Source: Candidatus Rokuibacteriota bacterium
GTDB taxonomy: Bacteria; Methylomirabilota; Methylomirabilia; Rokubacteriales; CSP1-6
NCBI GenBank assembly: GCA_003220225.1
Contig: QHRU01000067.1
Location: 1 to 40,216, forward strand
Length of the DNA: 40,216 nucleotides
Direction of reading: 5' to 3'
Position numbers and translations under genes: made by a program. Positions 3,319-9,529 of the stretch are shown here, in pieces (position 1 is the first letter of the stretch; the number at the start of each line of letters is the position of its first letter). The notes beneath the pieces are model-generated. The model did no database searches, was not told where the DNA came from, and was given only the letters and a program-made list of their open reading frames with translations.

Positions 3319-4701
3319 CTACGTCCGTAGCGCTCTCGTAAATCGTGCCACGATCGTCCGGGCCAGCGCCTCCGGCGAGGCGTCGCCCTCGCGGGCGCGC
3401 CAGTCGCGCAGGCGGATCACGGCCTTGGCCATCGCCCGATGGCCGCCGGCGGAGCCGAGGTCCCCGAACGCGTGGCGCACCACGTCGCCGGCCGCCCGCA
3501 CCCAGCCGACGTTGCGCACGGAGACGTGCAGCTCGCCGTGCACGGTGCCGGACACGACCGACCATTCCGCGCCCTCCACCTGCAGGAAGAAGTCCGCGAA
3601 CTGCGCGACGAGCTCGGGATAGGCGACGGCGCCCAGGTGGGAGAAGACGACGCCGTGCACCACGTGGCGGCCGGCGATCCCCCGCGCCAGCACGTCGAGG
3701 GCCTCGTTCGGCAGATCGGGCCGCTCGATGCGCCGCAGCGCGCTGTGGTTCGCCAGCGCGTGCACGTAGGCGAAGGCCTCGAGGTCGGCGCGCGTGGCCC
3801 CGCGCTCGAGGTGCTGGGTGTCCGCCTTGATCCCGTAGAGCAGCGCGGTGGCCAGGCGCTGGGAGACGCGCGCGTCGATCGCGCGCAGGTATTCGGTGAG
3901 GATGGTGGCGGTGGCCCCGTAGCCCGGGCGCAGATCCTTCAAGATGGCCCGCACCGGCGCTTCCTCGGGGTGGTGGTCGATCACGAGGTCCACGCGCTCG
4001 AACGTCTCCTCGAAGAACGAGGGCTGGGCGTCGACCATCGCGAGCGCGTCGTACTCCTCGAGCGCGCGCGGCTTGATCTGCTCGACGTCGATCTCGAGGA
4101 TGCGCGTCATGGCGCGGTTCTCGGGACGCGTGATGGTGCCGAAGGTCGCGATCGGCGCCGCCGTCTTGTTGCGGCCCAGCACGGCGCGCAGCGCGAGGGC
4201 GGAGGCGATGGCATCGGGGTCGGGATCGTCCTGCATCATGATCAGCACGCGCTCGGCCGAGGCGAAGTGGGCGCGGACGCGCTCCACGCGCGCACGGGTC
4301 AGCGCGCGCTCGAGCGCGGGCTCGAGGAAGCGCTCGGTGACGGCGTCCATCGCGAGCCCGATCACGCCCTCGGGCTCGCCGCCCGGCACGCGGTCTTCGG
4401 CGAGCGCCACGATCGGCGCGTCGGGGGCGACGCGGCGGATGGCGGCCACGATGCGCGCCTGGCGGGCGCGCTCGACGGCGAGGAGCACCGGCTCGTGGCC
4501 CGTGCGGAAGGCGCGACGGTAGAGGCCCTCGCGCTCGAGGTCCCCGGTGAGGGCTTCGCCGCCCCGCTGCACGATCCGCGTGCGCGCGCGGGCGCTCTCG
4601 ACGAGGTAGAGCGGGTCGAGGCGCGGCTCACCGGAGTCGGCGACCAGGCGCCAGAGGAAGTCGTCGGGGCAGGCCAGGATGCAGCGCATGATCCACCGCA
4701 A
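3319..4701 (-). CDS. DHH/DHHA1-family phosphoesterase (RecJ/NrnA-like) with an extra N-terminal domain
   Basis: The 460-residue protein carries DHH-family metal-binding motifs. These are DDPDPDA (158-164), an aspartate in AMVDAQ (224), the signature DHH (242-244) and a C-terminal DHHA1 substrate-binding motif GSAGGHRAM. NrnA-type enzymes hydrolyse nanoRNA, pAp or cyclic dinucleotides with Mn2+, and cytosolic action is expected. About 140 residues precede the DHH domain; they begin with ILACPDDFLWRLV and include a region like a degenerate nucleotide-binding (TrkA-N-like) fold. That arrangement is unlike the compact ~320-residue NrnA. The precise substrate cannot be read from sequence. The gene stands alone on the minus strand, with a palindromic repeat element upstream of its start. 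Confidence 0.85.
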   Translation of the reverse strand: MRWIMRCILACPDDFLWRLVADSGEPRLDPLYLVESARARTRIVQRGGEALTGDLEREGLYRRAFRTGHEPVLLAVERARQARIVAAIRRVAPDAPIVALAEDRVPGGEPEGVIGLAMDAVTERFLEPALERALTRARVERVRAHFASAERVLIMMQDDPDPDAIASALALRAVLGRNKTAAPIATFGTITRPENRAMTRILEIDVEQIKPRALEEYDALAMVDAQPSFFEETFERVDLVIDHHPEEAPVRAILKDLRPGYGATATILTEYLRAIDARVSQRLATALLYGIKADTQHLERGATRADLEAFAYVHALANHSALRRIERPDLPNEALDVLARGIAGRHVVHGVVFSHLGAVAYPELVAQFADFFLQVEGAEWSVVSGTVHGELHVSVRNVGWVRAAGDVVRHAFGDLGSAGGHRAMAKAVIRLRDWRAREGDASPEALARTIVARFTRALRT

Positions 4702-5174: not shown

Positions 5175-7397
5175 TCAGGCGACGCGGCGGTCGGTCACGC
5201 GTGGGATCCGCGCCAGCTCGTCGAGCAGCAGCCCCGCCCAGCCGTAGATGTTGTGCTCGCGGACCTGCCTCCGCATATGGCTCATCCGGTCGCGGCGCTC
5301 CTCCACCGGGAGCCCGACCGCGCGGTGGATGGTCGAGGCCACGTCCTCCACGTCGTAGGGGTTGACCAGCAGCGCGTCGGGCAGCTCGTGCGAGGCGCCC
5401 GCGAACCGGCTCAGGATGAGGACGCCGTCGTCGTCGTCGCGGGCGGCCACGAACTCCTTGGCGACCAGGTTCATGCCGTCGTGGAGCGAGGTCACCATGC
5501 AGAAGTCGGCGAGGCGGTAGAAGCCGTAGATCTCGCGGCGGTCGTGATGGCGCTCGCGGTAGACGATCGGCTGCCAGCCGCGCTCGCCGAGGTCGGCGTT
5601 GAGCGCGCGCACCATCTCCCGCGTCTCCTCCTGCACGGCCTGGTAGCGCGCGATGCGGCTGCGGCTCGGCGAGGCGATCTGGATGAAGGTGAGACGCCGG
5701 CGGTACTCGGGCCAGCGCTCGAAGAACCGCCGCAGCGCGCGGATCCGTTCCGGCAGGCCCTTCGTGTAATCCACACGCTCGACGCCGACGCCGATGAACT
5801 CGCCGGTGACACCGAACGCCGCCAGCGCGGCCGCGCGGTCGGCCGGCCGCGCCGCGGCGCCGAGGTCGGGCGCGACGCTGATCGGAAACGGCCGCACGTG
5901 GGTCGTGTGCTGGCCGCGGACGACCGTGAAGCGGTCCCATTCGATCCGCCCCTCGATGGCGCGCTCGACGGTCTCGAGGAAGTTGTTGCAGTAGAACTGC
6001 GTGTGGAAGCCGACGAGGTCGGCGCCCAGCATCCCGAGCAGGATGTCCGACTGCCAGGGGCAGATGCCGACGGCCTCGAAGTTCGGCCACGGAATGTGCC
6101 AGAAGAGCGCCACGCGCGCGTCGGGGCGCGCCTCCTTCACGAGACGGGGCAGCAGCGCGAAGTGGTAGTCCTGCACGAGCACGATCGGCGCCTCGACCGC
6201 CTCCATCTCCTGGAGCAGCGCCTTCGCGAAGCGCTCGTTCACCGCGCGATAGTGCCCCCAGTCGGCGGCGCGGAAGCGCGGGCGCTCGTGGACGATGTGG
6301 CAGAGCGGCCACAAGCCCTCGTTGGCGAAGCCGTAGTAGTAGCCGGCCTCCTCCTCGTCGCTCAGCCACACGCGCCGCAGCGTGTACGCCGGATCCGCCG
6401 AGGGCAGGCCGATGCGCTCGCCGACCTCGCGGTCGGCGTTGCCGCTGCCGTGGGCGACCCACACGCCGCCGCAGGCCTGCATGATGGGCCCGAGCGCGGT
6501 GACGAGCCCGCTCGCCGGCTCCTGCTCGCGCACGACGCGGCCGTCGCGCACGTGGCTCACCGGCTCGCGGTTGGACACGACGAAGACCGGGCGGCGGCCG
6601 AAGCGCATCTCGACGAACTGCTTGAGACGCTCCTCCGTCCACACGCTCTCGCCGGCCAGCCGGAGCCGCGCCTCCTGCTCGGCGGCGCTGCGCGCGCGCG
6701 CGAGCGTGCGCGCCAGTCCCGTCACCTCGCTGGCCAGCGAGCCGAAGAGGCTCTCGTCGGCGTCGGGCGGCGGGGCCACCGGGCGGCCCGCCTTCATCTG
6801 CTTGGTCCACTCCGCGATGCGCGCGATCGGACGCGTCACCGACCAGCGCACGAGGGCCCAGGTGATGCCGGTGACCAGCAGCATCAGCACACCCATCCGG
6901 ACGGCCGTCCGCCGCCAGAGGTCCCACTCGCCGGAGTCGAGATACTGGGCGTCGAGGAGGACGGCGGCGGCGCCGGCCGCGCGCTCGTCCTGCTGCACCG
7001 GGACGACGTGGACCCAGGTGAGCCGGCCCGCGACGTTCTGGAAGCCGGCCACGGGCTCGTTGCTGCGGATCGCGTCGCTGACGAGCGGGGACAGCGGACC
7101 CAGGAACGGCCGCACGTCGGCGGTCGCGGCGAGCACGCCGCCGAATGTGTCGTAGATGGCGAGGCCGCGCTCGGGCGTGCCGAAGCGCGTGAGCACGCGC
7201 TCGTAGCCGGTGCGCGCGCCGCGCGTCACCAGCCGCTCGGAGGCCTCCGCGACGGCGGCGCCGACCAGCGTGGCGCGGCGCTTGAGGCTCTCGATCTGGC
7301 GCTCGCGCTCCTCGCGCACCTCGAGGTAGGCGAAGCCCGCCGAGACGACCAGCGTGACCAGCCAGATCCCGCCGAGCAGGCGGACGAGGAATCGCAT
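5175..7397 (-). CDS. otsA: Membrane-anchored trehalose-6-phosphate synthase with N-terminal sensor and HAMP-like module
   Basis: The 740-residue protein joins a receptor-like front to a complete GT20 synthase. The front has a transmembrane helix at about 5-25, an extracytoplasmic region of about 140 residues, a second helix at about 167-187 and a HAMP-like stretch with a coiled segment (188-245). The synthase, from about 268, has [11 protein letters not shown], the G-loop region [27 protein letters not shown], the phosphate-contacting Arg541 and Lys546 in [13 protein letters not shown], and Asp640 to Glu648 in [10 protein letters not shown]. All expected OtsA active-site motifs are present. 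OtsA makes trehalose-6-phosphate from UDP-glucose and glucose-6-phosphate; ordinary OtsA is soluble and about 470 residues. No OtsB phosphatase is adjacent. The gene follows apgM with a four-base gap. The enzyme call is secure; sensing is inferred from architecture. Confidence 0.92.
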
Positions 7398-7401
7398 GCC
7401 C

Positions 7402-8601
7402 CTACGCTCCGAACTTCATCAGCCTCTGGGCGTTGGCCATGACGAGCGGCATGAGGTGATGCGCGGGGATCGTGCCGAGGCTGCCCGTCGCGCACGCCCG
7501 CTCGGTGAATGCGGTGACGGAATCGGCGCCGCAGTAGCGGCTCCACAGGAGCGCCGGGACCGGCTGCCAGCCGTGGCCCGCGAGCACCGAGGGCGTGGCG
7601 TGGTCGCCCGACACGACGAGGACATCGGGACGGAGCGCGCGGACCTTCGGGACGTGCGCGTCGAAGCGCTCGAGGGCCGCCACCTTGCCGTCGAAGTCGC
7701 CGTCCTCTCCGGCCTTGTCGGTGTCCTTGTAGTGTACGAAGAAGAAGTCGTAGGCCTCCCAGTGCTCGCCGAGCGTCGCGATCTCGCTCTCGAACGTGCC
7801 GCCGGTCTTGAGCACGTCCATGCCGACGAGCTTGGCGAGGCCGCGGTACATCGGGTAGGCGGCGATGGCCGCCGCGCGCATGCCGTAGACCTCGGGGAAG
7901 CGCGGCAGCTCCGGCAGCTGGTCGAAGCCACGCAGGAGCACCATGTTCGCGGGCGCCGCGTCGTGCAGCAGGCGGCCGGCCTCGGTCACGAAGCGGTTGA
8001 CGAGGTCCGCCGTGGCGCCCGCGGCGGGCTCGAGCGCGCGCACCGGCAGCGGCGGCTTGCCCAGCACCTGGGGATCCGTCTCCGAGAGGCGTCCGCTGAG
8101 CCGTGGCCCGCGCAGCACGAGCACGAAGCGATGCTCCTTGACGGGCTCGACGAAGACTTCGACGCCCGGCAGGCGGATCGCGCGCAGCCGCTCGGTGAGT
8201 CGCACGCAGACCTCGGTGCCGATGCGGCCCGCGCGCCGGTCGGTGATGCGGCCCTGCGCGTCGACGGTGCAGAAGTTGCCGCGCGCGGCGACGTCGCCCG
8301 CGCGCAGGTCGAACTCGATGCCGAGCGACTCCAGCACGCCGCGGCCGACCTGGAAGCGCACCGGATCGTAGCCGAAGAGGCCGAGGTGCCCCGGCCCGCT
8401 GCCCGGCGTGATGCCGGGCGCGACGTGGCGGAGCAGGCCACAGGCCGCCTCCGAGGCGAGAGCGGCCAGGTTGGGCATGCCGGCCGTCTCGAGCTCCGAG
8501 CGCCCCGTTTCGGGGCGCGGGAGGCCGCCGAGCCCGTCGAGCGAGAGAAGGACGATCTTCGTGGTGTTCGACACCACGAGCGGGCGAATGAGATCCAGCA
8601 T
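7402..8601 (-). CDS. apgM: 2,3-bisphosphoglycerate-independent phosphoglycerate mutase, archaeal type
   Basis: The 399-residue length matches the ApgM branch of the alkaline-phosphatase superfamily rather than the ~510-residue GpmI. Visible motifs are the metal-binding LLSLDGLGG (Asp22), the hallmark TPGSGPGHLGLFGYDP holding the probable nucleophile Ser68, and the C-terminal metal ligands in VVSGDHATPSVLAGHG. The enzyme interconverts 3- and 2-phosphoglycerate in glycolysis and gluconeogenesis in the cytosol. It lies 22 bases after the FAH-family gene and 4 bases before otsA, so the three are probably co-transcribed. That would tie central carbon flux to trehalose synthesis, although shared regulation is only inferred. 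Confidence 0.92.
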   Translation of the reverse strand: MLDLIRPLVVSNTTKIVLLSLDGLGGLPRPETGRSELETAGMPNLAALASEAACGLLRHVAPGITPGSGPGHLGLFGYDPVRFQVGRGVLESLGIEFDLRAGDVAARGNFCTVDAQGRITDRRAGRIGTEVCVRLTERLRAIRLPGVEVFVEPVKEHRFVLVLRGPRLSGRLSETDPQVLGKPPLPVRALEPAAGATADLVNRFVTEAGRLLHDAAPANMVLLRGFDQLPELPRFPEVYGMRAAAIAAYPMYRGLAKLVGMDVLKTGGTFESEIATLGEHWEAYDFFFVHYKDTDKAGEDGDFDGKVAALERFDAHVPKVRALRPDVLVVSGDHATPSVLAGHGWQPVPALLWSRYCGADSVTAFTERACATGSLGTIPAHHLMPLVMANAQRLMKFGA

Positions 8602-8623
8602 GGCTTCAGTGTACCGGAGGCCG

Positions 8624-9529
8624 CTACGCTTCCTTGACGGGGTTGTCCATCGAGCCCAGCTTGTCGATCTCCACGCGGCACACGTCGCCGGGCTGCAGGA
8701 ACACCGGGGTCGGCTTCATCGCGAACCCCACGCCCGGCGGCGTCCCGGTGGCGATCAGATCGCCGGGCGACAGCGTCATGAGCCCCGAGAGGTAGGAGAC
8801 GAGGTAGCGCACGTCGAAGATGAACGTCTTGGTGTTGCCGTTCTGCATCTGCTTGCCGTTCACGAACGTCTTCAGCGCGAGCGTGTGGGGATCGGCGATC
8901 TCCTGACGGTCGGCGACGTACGGGCCCACGGGGGCGGCCGTCTCGAAGATCTTGCCGGCCATCCACTGGCTGGTGATGAACTGGAAGTCGCGCGCGCTCG
9001 CGTCGTTGACGATCGTGTACCCCCACACGTAATCGAGCGCCGACTCCTTCGACACGAAGCGCGCCGTGCGGCCGATCACCACGCCCAGCTCGACCTCCCA
9101 GTCGAGCTGCTTGCTGCCGCGCGGGCGCAGGATCGGATCGCCCGGCCCGACGATGGAGGGGCTCCACTTGCCGAAGATGGGCGGCTCCTTCGGGATGGGG
9201 TTGCCCGTCTCCTCGGCGTGGTCGCGGTAGTTCAGGCCGATGCAGATGAACTTGCCGGGATCGGTGATGGGCGCGTGCAGCCGCGCGGAGGCCGCCGGGA
9301 CGGTCACCCATTCCTTGATCGAGGCGACGGCCTCCGCGCTGGCCGCGCCGCCTTCGAGGAACTCGCGCGCGGACGGCGGCACCAGCGCGGCGGCGATCTC
9401 CTGCGCGCGGACGACGCCGCGGGCGGCCAGGGTGGCGGCGACGCTGGCGGCGAGATCGGCGATGCGATCGCCCTGCAGCGCGCCGAGGCGCGGGGATTGC
9501 CCATTGGCGGAGAACCGGACGAGCTTCAT
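8624..9529 (-). CDS. Fumarylacetoacetate hydrolase-family protein
   Basis: The 301-residue protein has the FAH-fold catalytic domain. Evidence includes FICIGLNYRDHAEE (with His104), the paired metal ligands in WEVELG (Glu145, Glu147), Asp176 in IVNDASARDFQ and the C-terminal GDLIATGTPPGVG loop. Members cleave or decarboxylate 2-oxo acids using Mg2+: 2-keto-4-pentenoate hydratase-like enzymes, acylpyruvases, ureidoglycolate lyase and oxaloacetate decarboxylase. The family is broad and the substrate cannot be assigned from these motifs. The start ATG at 9529 has a good GGGAGG ribosome-binding site. It is the first gene of the probable FAH-apgM-otsA operon. Confidence 0.9.
   Translation of the reverse strand: MKLVRFSANGQSPRLGALQGDRIADLAASVAATLAARGVVRAQEIAAALVPPSAREFLEGGAASAEAVASIKEWVTVPAASARLHAPITDPGKFICIGLNYRDHAEETGNPIPKEPPIFGKWSPSIVGPGDPILRPRGSKQLDWEVELGVVIGRTARFVSKESALDYVWGYTIVNDASARDFQFITSQWMAGKIFETAAPVGPYVADRQEIADPHTLALKTFVNGKQMQNGNTKTFIFDVRYLVSYLSGLMTLSPGDLIATGTPPGVGFAMKPTPVFLQPGDVCRVEIDKLGSMDNPVKEA

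Follow-up and report, generated by a model that had tools for sequence, protein, structure and literature searches.

The window, i.e. the whole stretch of 40,216 nucleotides that was analysed, carries on its minus strand a gene for a fusion protein of 740 amino acids. From the N-terminus onwards, its parts follow each other in the order transmembrane (TM) helix, single-Cache-like extracytoplasmic domain, TM helix, HAMP domain, coiled linker and complete GT20 domain of the OtsA type. The features of the locus and the evidence for each of them are:

5175..7397, minus: sensor-HAMP-GT20 fusion protein (P0001), 740 aa (single ATG-started frame; full-length homologues in 11 phyla)
7323..7379, minus: transmembrane helix 1, aa 7-25 (hydropathy; within helix 2-59 of the models)
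6945..7223, minus: predicted single-Cache-like extracytoplasmic sensor domain, about aa 59-151 (AF2 model, Foldseek match to the WalK sensor, profile match, Pfam matches of homologues)
6840..6905, minus: transmembrane helix 2, aa 165-186 (hydropathy; within helix 151-202 of the model)
6687..6839, minus: predicted HAMP domain, aa 187-237, with the invariant P190 and E224 (sub-threshold Pfam match, PDB profile matches, invariant columns, WalK match spanning the HAMP)
6591..6686, minus: helical HAMP-GT20 linker, aa 238-269 (AF2 helix 215-249, then 255-266; regional identity)
5211..6584, minus: GT20 trehalose-6-phosphate synthase domain, aa 272-729 (PF00982, Foldseek matches to TPS structures, catalytic residues kept)
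7402..8601, minus: apgM/iPGM, 2,3-bisphosphoglycerate-independent phosphoglycerate mutase (NCBIfam PRK04135, 565 bits, over the cut-off; its stop lies 4 nt before the start codon of the fusion)
8624..9529, minus: fumarylacetoacetate (FAA) hydrolase family protein, upstream in the same string (PF01557, 242 bits; upstream position conserved in the clade described below)
3319..4701, minus: DHH-family protein, downstream (PF01368, 41.7 bits; likewise downstream in L003, L004, L032 and L033)

The sensor-synthase fusion is a widespread family and not a local oddity. A scan of species genomes yielded at least 565 confirmed relatives, the best 80 of which match over approximately the full length, sensor included. 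Full-length colinear homologues with 41-72% identity are found in 11 named phyla (according to the taxonomy labels of the tree, Acidobacteriota, Elusimicrobiota, Nitrospirota, Omnitrophota, Methylomirabilota, Myxococcota, Bacteroidota, Verrucomicrobiota, Gemmatimonadota, Edwardsbacteria and Daviesbacteria). Apart from MAGs, which predominate, the carriers include an isolate, Niastella soli, and a complete chromosome, CP096137. Both in the genome of the window and in 8 of the 10 other genomes checked, the fusion is the sole GT20 gene. In a few relatives from the same phylum, the match sets in only at about residue 255 and the frames have about 500-550 aa, so sensor-less versions exist as well. 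With more than 100 full-length homologues at 41-93% identity, the fusion is not due to chance, and the conservation of the same anatomy across phyla argues that the joining of sensor and GT20 is functional. An assembly artefact or a frameshift join was rejected, since there is one open frame and the same architecture occurs in more than 100 independent genomes.

The GT20 half of the protein matches PF00982 with 367 bits (cut-off 32.5) over profile positions 4-472 of 473, and Foldseek aligns the modelled domain with the TPS structures 5jio, 5k41 and 1gz5 (target TM 0.88-0.92); its nearest relative in the PDB is the trehalose-6-phosphate synthase of Mycobacterium thermoresistibile. We mapped the residues of the domain using E. 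coli OtsA as the reference. The equivalents of OtsA R9, G22, Y76, W85, D130, H154, R262, K267, R300, D361 and E369 are present without exception in the window protein, and these 11 residues are near-invariant in 104 aligned proteins, whether OtsB is nearby or not. In OtsA, the residues R262, K267, L365 and E369 touch the nucleotide, and R9 recognises the phosphate of glucose-6-phosphate (PMC3441724).

Like the E. coli and mycobacterial OtsA, the fusion has the GT-B fold, the catalytic and phosphate-binding residues and, in most of its relatives, OtsB as a neighbour. On the other hand, OtsA is a soluble protein of about 470 aa, whereas the fusion adds about 270 N-terminal residues as a sensor-HAMP module. 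Two residues differ from OtsA across the fusion family: a Trp near the acceptor site, in the motif "LWFGW" (the second Trp, W42 in E. coli counted with Met), is mostly His, otherwise Gln or another residue, and the Arg that precedes OtsA D361 (R361 in E. coli numbering with Met) is replaced by His. Furthermore, the fusion reaches 424 bits with the OtsA equivalog TIGR02400, which is below the cut-off of 564.85, so its GT20 domain belongs to a distinct GT20 subgroup. The best NCBIfam match of this half is the bifunctional OtsA-OtsB protein (PRK14501, 468 bits); however, the fusion misses the cut-off of 634 and has no OtsB half. From the sequence we infer that the domain makes trehalose-6-phosphate (T6P) from nucleotide-glucose and glucose-6-phosphate; an adjacent OtsB in 40 of 80 relatives supports this indirectly. 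Two other assignments were rejected: a catalytically dead pseudo-enzyme, because every active-site residue that was checked is kept, and a glucosylglycerol-phosphate synthase, because that model scores 276 bits versus 424 for OtsA and the neighbouring phosphatase is a T6PP above its cut-off.

The front half is more difficult to recognise. The hydropathy profile peaks twice, at aa 7-25 and at aa 165-183; of 110 homologues, 106 likewise have exactly two peaks of this kind. The Pfam HAMP model (PF00672) matches aa 182-235 with 16.3 bits (18.1 bits for the N-terminus alone), below the gathering cut-off of 25, and reaches E <= 0.01 in 3 of 58 family members; the sequence alone thus only hints at a HAMP domain. 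None of the sCache or dCache models in Pfam matches the window protein, and among the 58 family members sCache_3_2 is found in 8 and dCache_3 in 5. The Pfam family SMP_2 (PF10144) matches 14 of the 58 sensor halves, more than any Cache model; it may be a Cache-like membrane protein itself.

Structure prediction goes further. AlphaFold was run on the whole protein and on the N-terminal 252 residues with an alignment of 58 homologues, and the mean pLDDT was 86 in each case. The predicted N-terminus consists of a helix (2-59), a Cache/PAS-type alpha/beta domain (approximately 65-149) and two further helices (151-202 and 215-251), that is, the model has the single-Cache layout of a long N-terminal helix and an extracytoplasmic PAS-like sheet between two TM helices. 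The best Foldseek match of this model is WalK (9a5d, itself an integrative model), with E 4.5e-11 and a query TM of 0.81 over 258 columns. Next in rank come crystal structures of the WalK extracellular domain and then the sensor domains of KinD, DctB and CitA. A profile of the 58 homologues, when compared with the PDB, finds the YycG/WalK sensor domain (E 0.0012), the HAMP-containing region of Tsr and the AF1503 HAMP.

HAMP domains are characterised by two amphipathic helices that follow a TM helix, with a conserved Pro in the first one and a Glu where the second begins. In the fusion, helices 151-202 and 215-251 come after the TM segment, and P190 and E224, invariant in all 58 sequences, are the sole invariant residues among the first 252; they sit at the positions of the signature Pro and Glu. 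These predictions support the view that the N-terminus is a WalK-like sensor module, a resemblance that comes from the predicted structure, with the protein's own HAMP and Cache scores below the Pfam cut-offs. The sequence-only reading had made its sensor front dependent on such a fold, which AlphaFold does predict. The anatomy that it had claimed (a sensor, a HAMP and a coil joined to a complete GT20 domain in place of a kinase) is thus borne out by Pfam, hydropathy, AlphaFold, Foldseek and profile matches, and the extracytoplasmic part, for which it had given about 140 residues, comes to about 135.

The closest known counterpart of the front half is the WalK/YycG sensor histidine kinase, its best structural match, which has the same succession of TM, single Cache, TM and HAMP. 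However, the identity in the structural match is 14%, and the fusion lacks the PAS, DHp and ATPase domains and has a glycosyltransferase as output; Pfam finds no DHp or HATPase domain in the C-terminal part, which holds GT20 only. With respect to how it would work, the fusion can be compared with Cache-HAMP-GGDEF proteins and HAMP-adenylate cyclases. In these proteins, as in the fusion, a receptor in the membrane is linked directly, by way of HAMP, with an enzyme that produces a small molecule. Unlike in these receptor-type second-messenger enzymes, the output of the fusion is a core metabolic glycosyltransferase, the product of which normally feeds an osmolyte pathway.

The three regions are conserved to a different degree: the median identity is 27% for the sensor, 52% for the HAMP-GT20 linker and 58% for GT20. 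A sensor that has diverged while the GT20 domain was kept is what one expects if one output serves varying inputs. Alternatively, the N-terminal part could do no more than hold the synthase at the membrane as an anchor or scaffold, for example next to OtsB, TreT or a channel, and sense nothing. The poor conservation of the sensor fits this explanation too, as does the lack of invariant residues in the sensor domain that would mark a ligand pocket. Nevertheless, Cache domains with diverse ligands are variable in general, and a plain anchor needs neither a Cache fold nor a second TM helix nor a HAMP. Moreover, both invariant residues of the N-terminus lie in the HAMP, and the linker is better kept than the sensor. 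We therefore consider a pure anchor unlikely.

The genes around the fusion, identified by Pfam and NCBIfam, point to trehalose metabolism under osmotic control. In 80 named loci, OtsB was found within 6 kb of the fusion in 40 cases, a TreT-type trehalose synthase in 36 and DUF5752 in 30; these are minimum counts, as short contigs are frequent and the picking of ORFs in GC-rich loci is crude. OtsB mostly starts no more than about 200 bases past the end of the fusion. In one island with fusion, OtsB and TreT, an MscS-type mechanosensitive channel carries a fused DUF5752 at its C-terminal end (L040:11069-12445, plus strand), and tblastn finds the same MscS-DUF5752 pair in L038, L043, L047 and L060. 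Elsewhere, DUF5752 lies directly ahead of TreT. Loci L050 and L097 have standalone MscS genes in their vicinity, and other fusion loci have cation exchangers nearby. These arrangements suggest that DUF5752 ties membrane tension to trehalose synthesis, and the presence of MscS, DUF5752 and TreT in the fusion islands favours an osmotic control of this synthesis. In the window itself, neither MscS nor DUF5752 adjoins the fusion.

The reading that we prefer, and hold to be reasonably probable, is that the fusion is a membrane-bound, receptor-gated T6P synthase; that it is catalytically active and dimeric, that the sensor gates it and what kind of signal it receives are all points that we infer. 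A WalK-type single-Cache domain outside the membrane would read a signal, which would pass via TM2 through a dimeric HAMP and the coiled linker to the cytoplasmic GT20 domain, where nucleotide-glucose would be joined to glucose-6-phosphate. In most of the family, T6P would then be handed to the neighbouring OtsB and converted to trehalose. Osmotic or envelope stress would be the likely trigger, given that MscS channels, DUF5752 and TreT are found in the same gene islands. That an outside signal would directly set the T6P output, as the sequence-only reading had suggested, follows plausibly from the predicted anatomy.

The window's copy of the fusion belongs to a part of the family in which the partner phosphatase is largely missing. 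The order of mutase followed by fusion marks a Rokubacteriales clade of 12 proteins (SH-aLRT 99), in which FAA hydrolase, apgM-type mutase (together 7402-9529 of the window, minus strand) and fusion form a conserved string. A genome-wide scan with PF02358 found no OtsB in 13 of the 15 clade genomes (the one of the window and 12 others), with OtsB present in the remaining two, while OtsB is missing in only 2 of 38 other genomes of the phylum that have the fusion. The difference corresponds to a Fisher p of about 1e-8, or 8e-7 among genomes that are at least 90% complete, although kinship between the genomes means that these values overstate their independence. A locus outside the clade, L015, has both the mutase upstream and OtsB downstream of the fusion, which suggests that the loss of OtsB came afterwards. 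An OtsB hidden elsewhere in the window's genome was rejected, as the whole-genome search was negative and the same search was positive in 53 of 95 genomes of the phylum.

Among genomes of other phyla, picked mostly because no OtsB adjoined the fusion and of completeness not known, OtsB is absent altogether in 14 of 25 (G097, G098, G100, G102-G104, G106, G109, G111-G113 and G117-G119), many of them Acidobacteriota. In several OtsB-less genomes, the fusion is directly followed by DUF5752 and TreT (L044, L049, L071, L073, L093, L099 and L107). The window's own genome has, apart from the window, a cluster (G000:C97:17000-32000, L119) of GH57, GlgC, DUF5752, TreT, GlgE, a TreS-like enzyme of the alpha-amylase family and maltokinase, so trehalose has another source there. 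With OtsB gone in this lineage, T6P would either be cleared by some phosphatase that escaped recognition or be put to use unchanged. A GH65 phosphorylase was rejected as the T6P sink, because the genome has no gene of the GH65 family.

Alternatively, the enzyme of this clade may make a different product, or use a different nucleotide-sugar, instead of providing T6P for trehalose. Besides the distribution of OtsB, a change of substrate would fit the placement of the gene behind a phosphoglycerate mutase and the residue S576, at the site of OtsA P297 in the nucleotide-base pocket: Ser is fixed here in 13 of 13 clade members, whereas 90 of 91 other proteins have Ala or Pro (Ser in one). Yet the donor and acceptor residues that were checked are identical to those of the OtsB-linked relatives, and in the set of 58 sequences the clade differs from the others at just eight positions, none of them catalytic. 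We find such a change quite improbable.

Another explanation takes T6P in the OtsB-less clade to be an intracellular second messenger, with the fusion as a one-protein transducer similar to a receptor-type diguanylate cyclase. The combination of sensor, HAMP and intact synthase in a genome with neither OtsB nor a GH65 gene is consistent with this, and trehalose can be supplied by TreT, which is encoded elsewhere beside GlgE and the TreS-like gene. In plants, T6P is an established signal, and in fungi it acts as a regulator (PMC12125463). On the other hand, the accumulation of T6P is toxic in M. tuberculosis (PMC5148154), no T6P receptor has been identified, and an unrelated phosphatase could stand in for OtsB in what is a 97% complete draft genome. 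As a general account of T6P in the clade, we regard this as very unlikely. A speculative version, to which we give a low probability, is that in the OtsB-less Rokubacteriales clade, and possibly in OtsB-less Acidobacteriota, the fusion acts as a one-component transducer that turns an outside signal into a pulse of T6P as intracellular messenger, with trehalose made by TreT; if true, a receptor enzyme that once served an osmolyte pathway would have become a device for signalling when the phosphatase was lost.

Known outputs of receptor-HAMP modules include kinases, cyclases, the signalling domains of chemotaxis and comparable signalling parts. In the open-access literature, we found no characterised regulatory class with a sensor-GT20 fusion and no paper that couples a bacterial TPS, OtsA or GT20 with HAMP or Cache (subscription papers could still hold one), nor anything relevant on OtsA lacking OtsB. 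Each part of the fusion is of a known kind. What seems not to have been described in that literature is the joining of a receptor-HAMP module with a metabolic glycosyltransferase, the breadth of its distribution and the loss of OtsB.

If the fusion is indeed a receptor-gated synthase, the production of a stress-protecting sugar may be set directly from an outside signal. A receptor hard-wired to a central osmolyte enzyme would bypass both transcription and phosphorelay and let metabolism respond at once. That OtsB is missing time and again makes one ask what role T6P plays in bacteria, and with Niastella soli there is a cultured strain that carries the fusion. Since it is the sole GT20 gene in many genomes over about 11 phyla, the fusion may be the main route of T6P control in many uncultured soil and groundwater bacteria.
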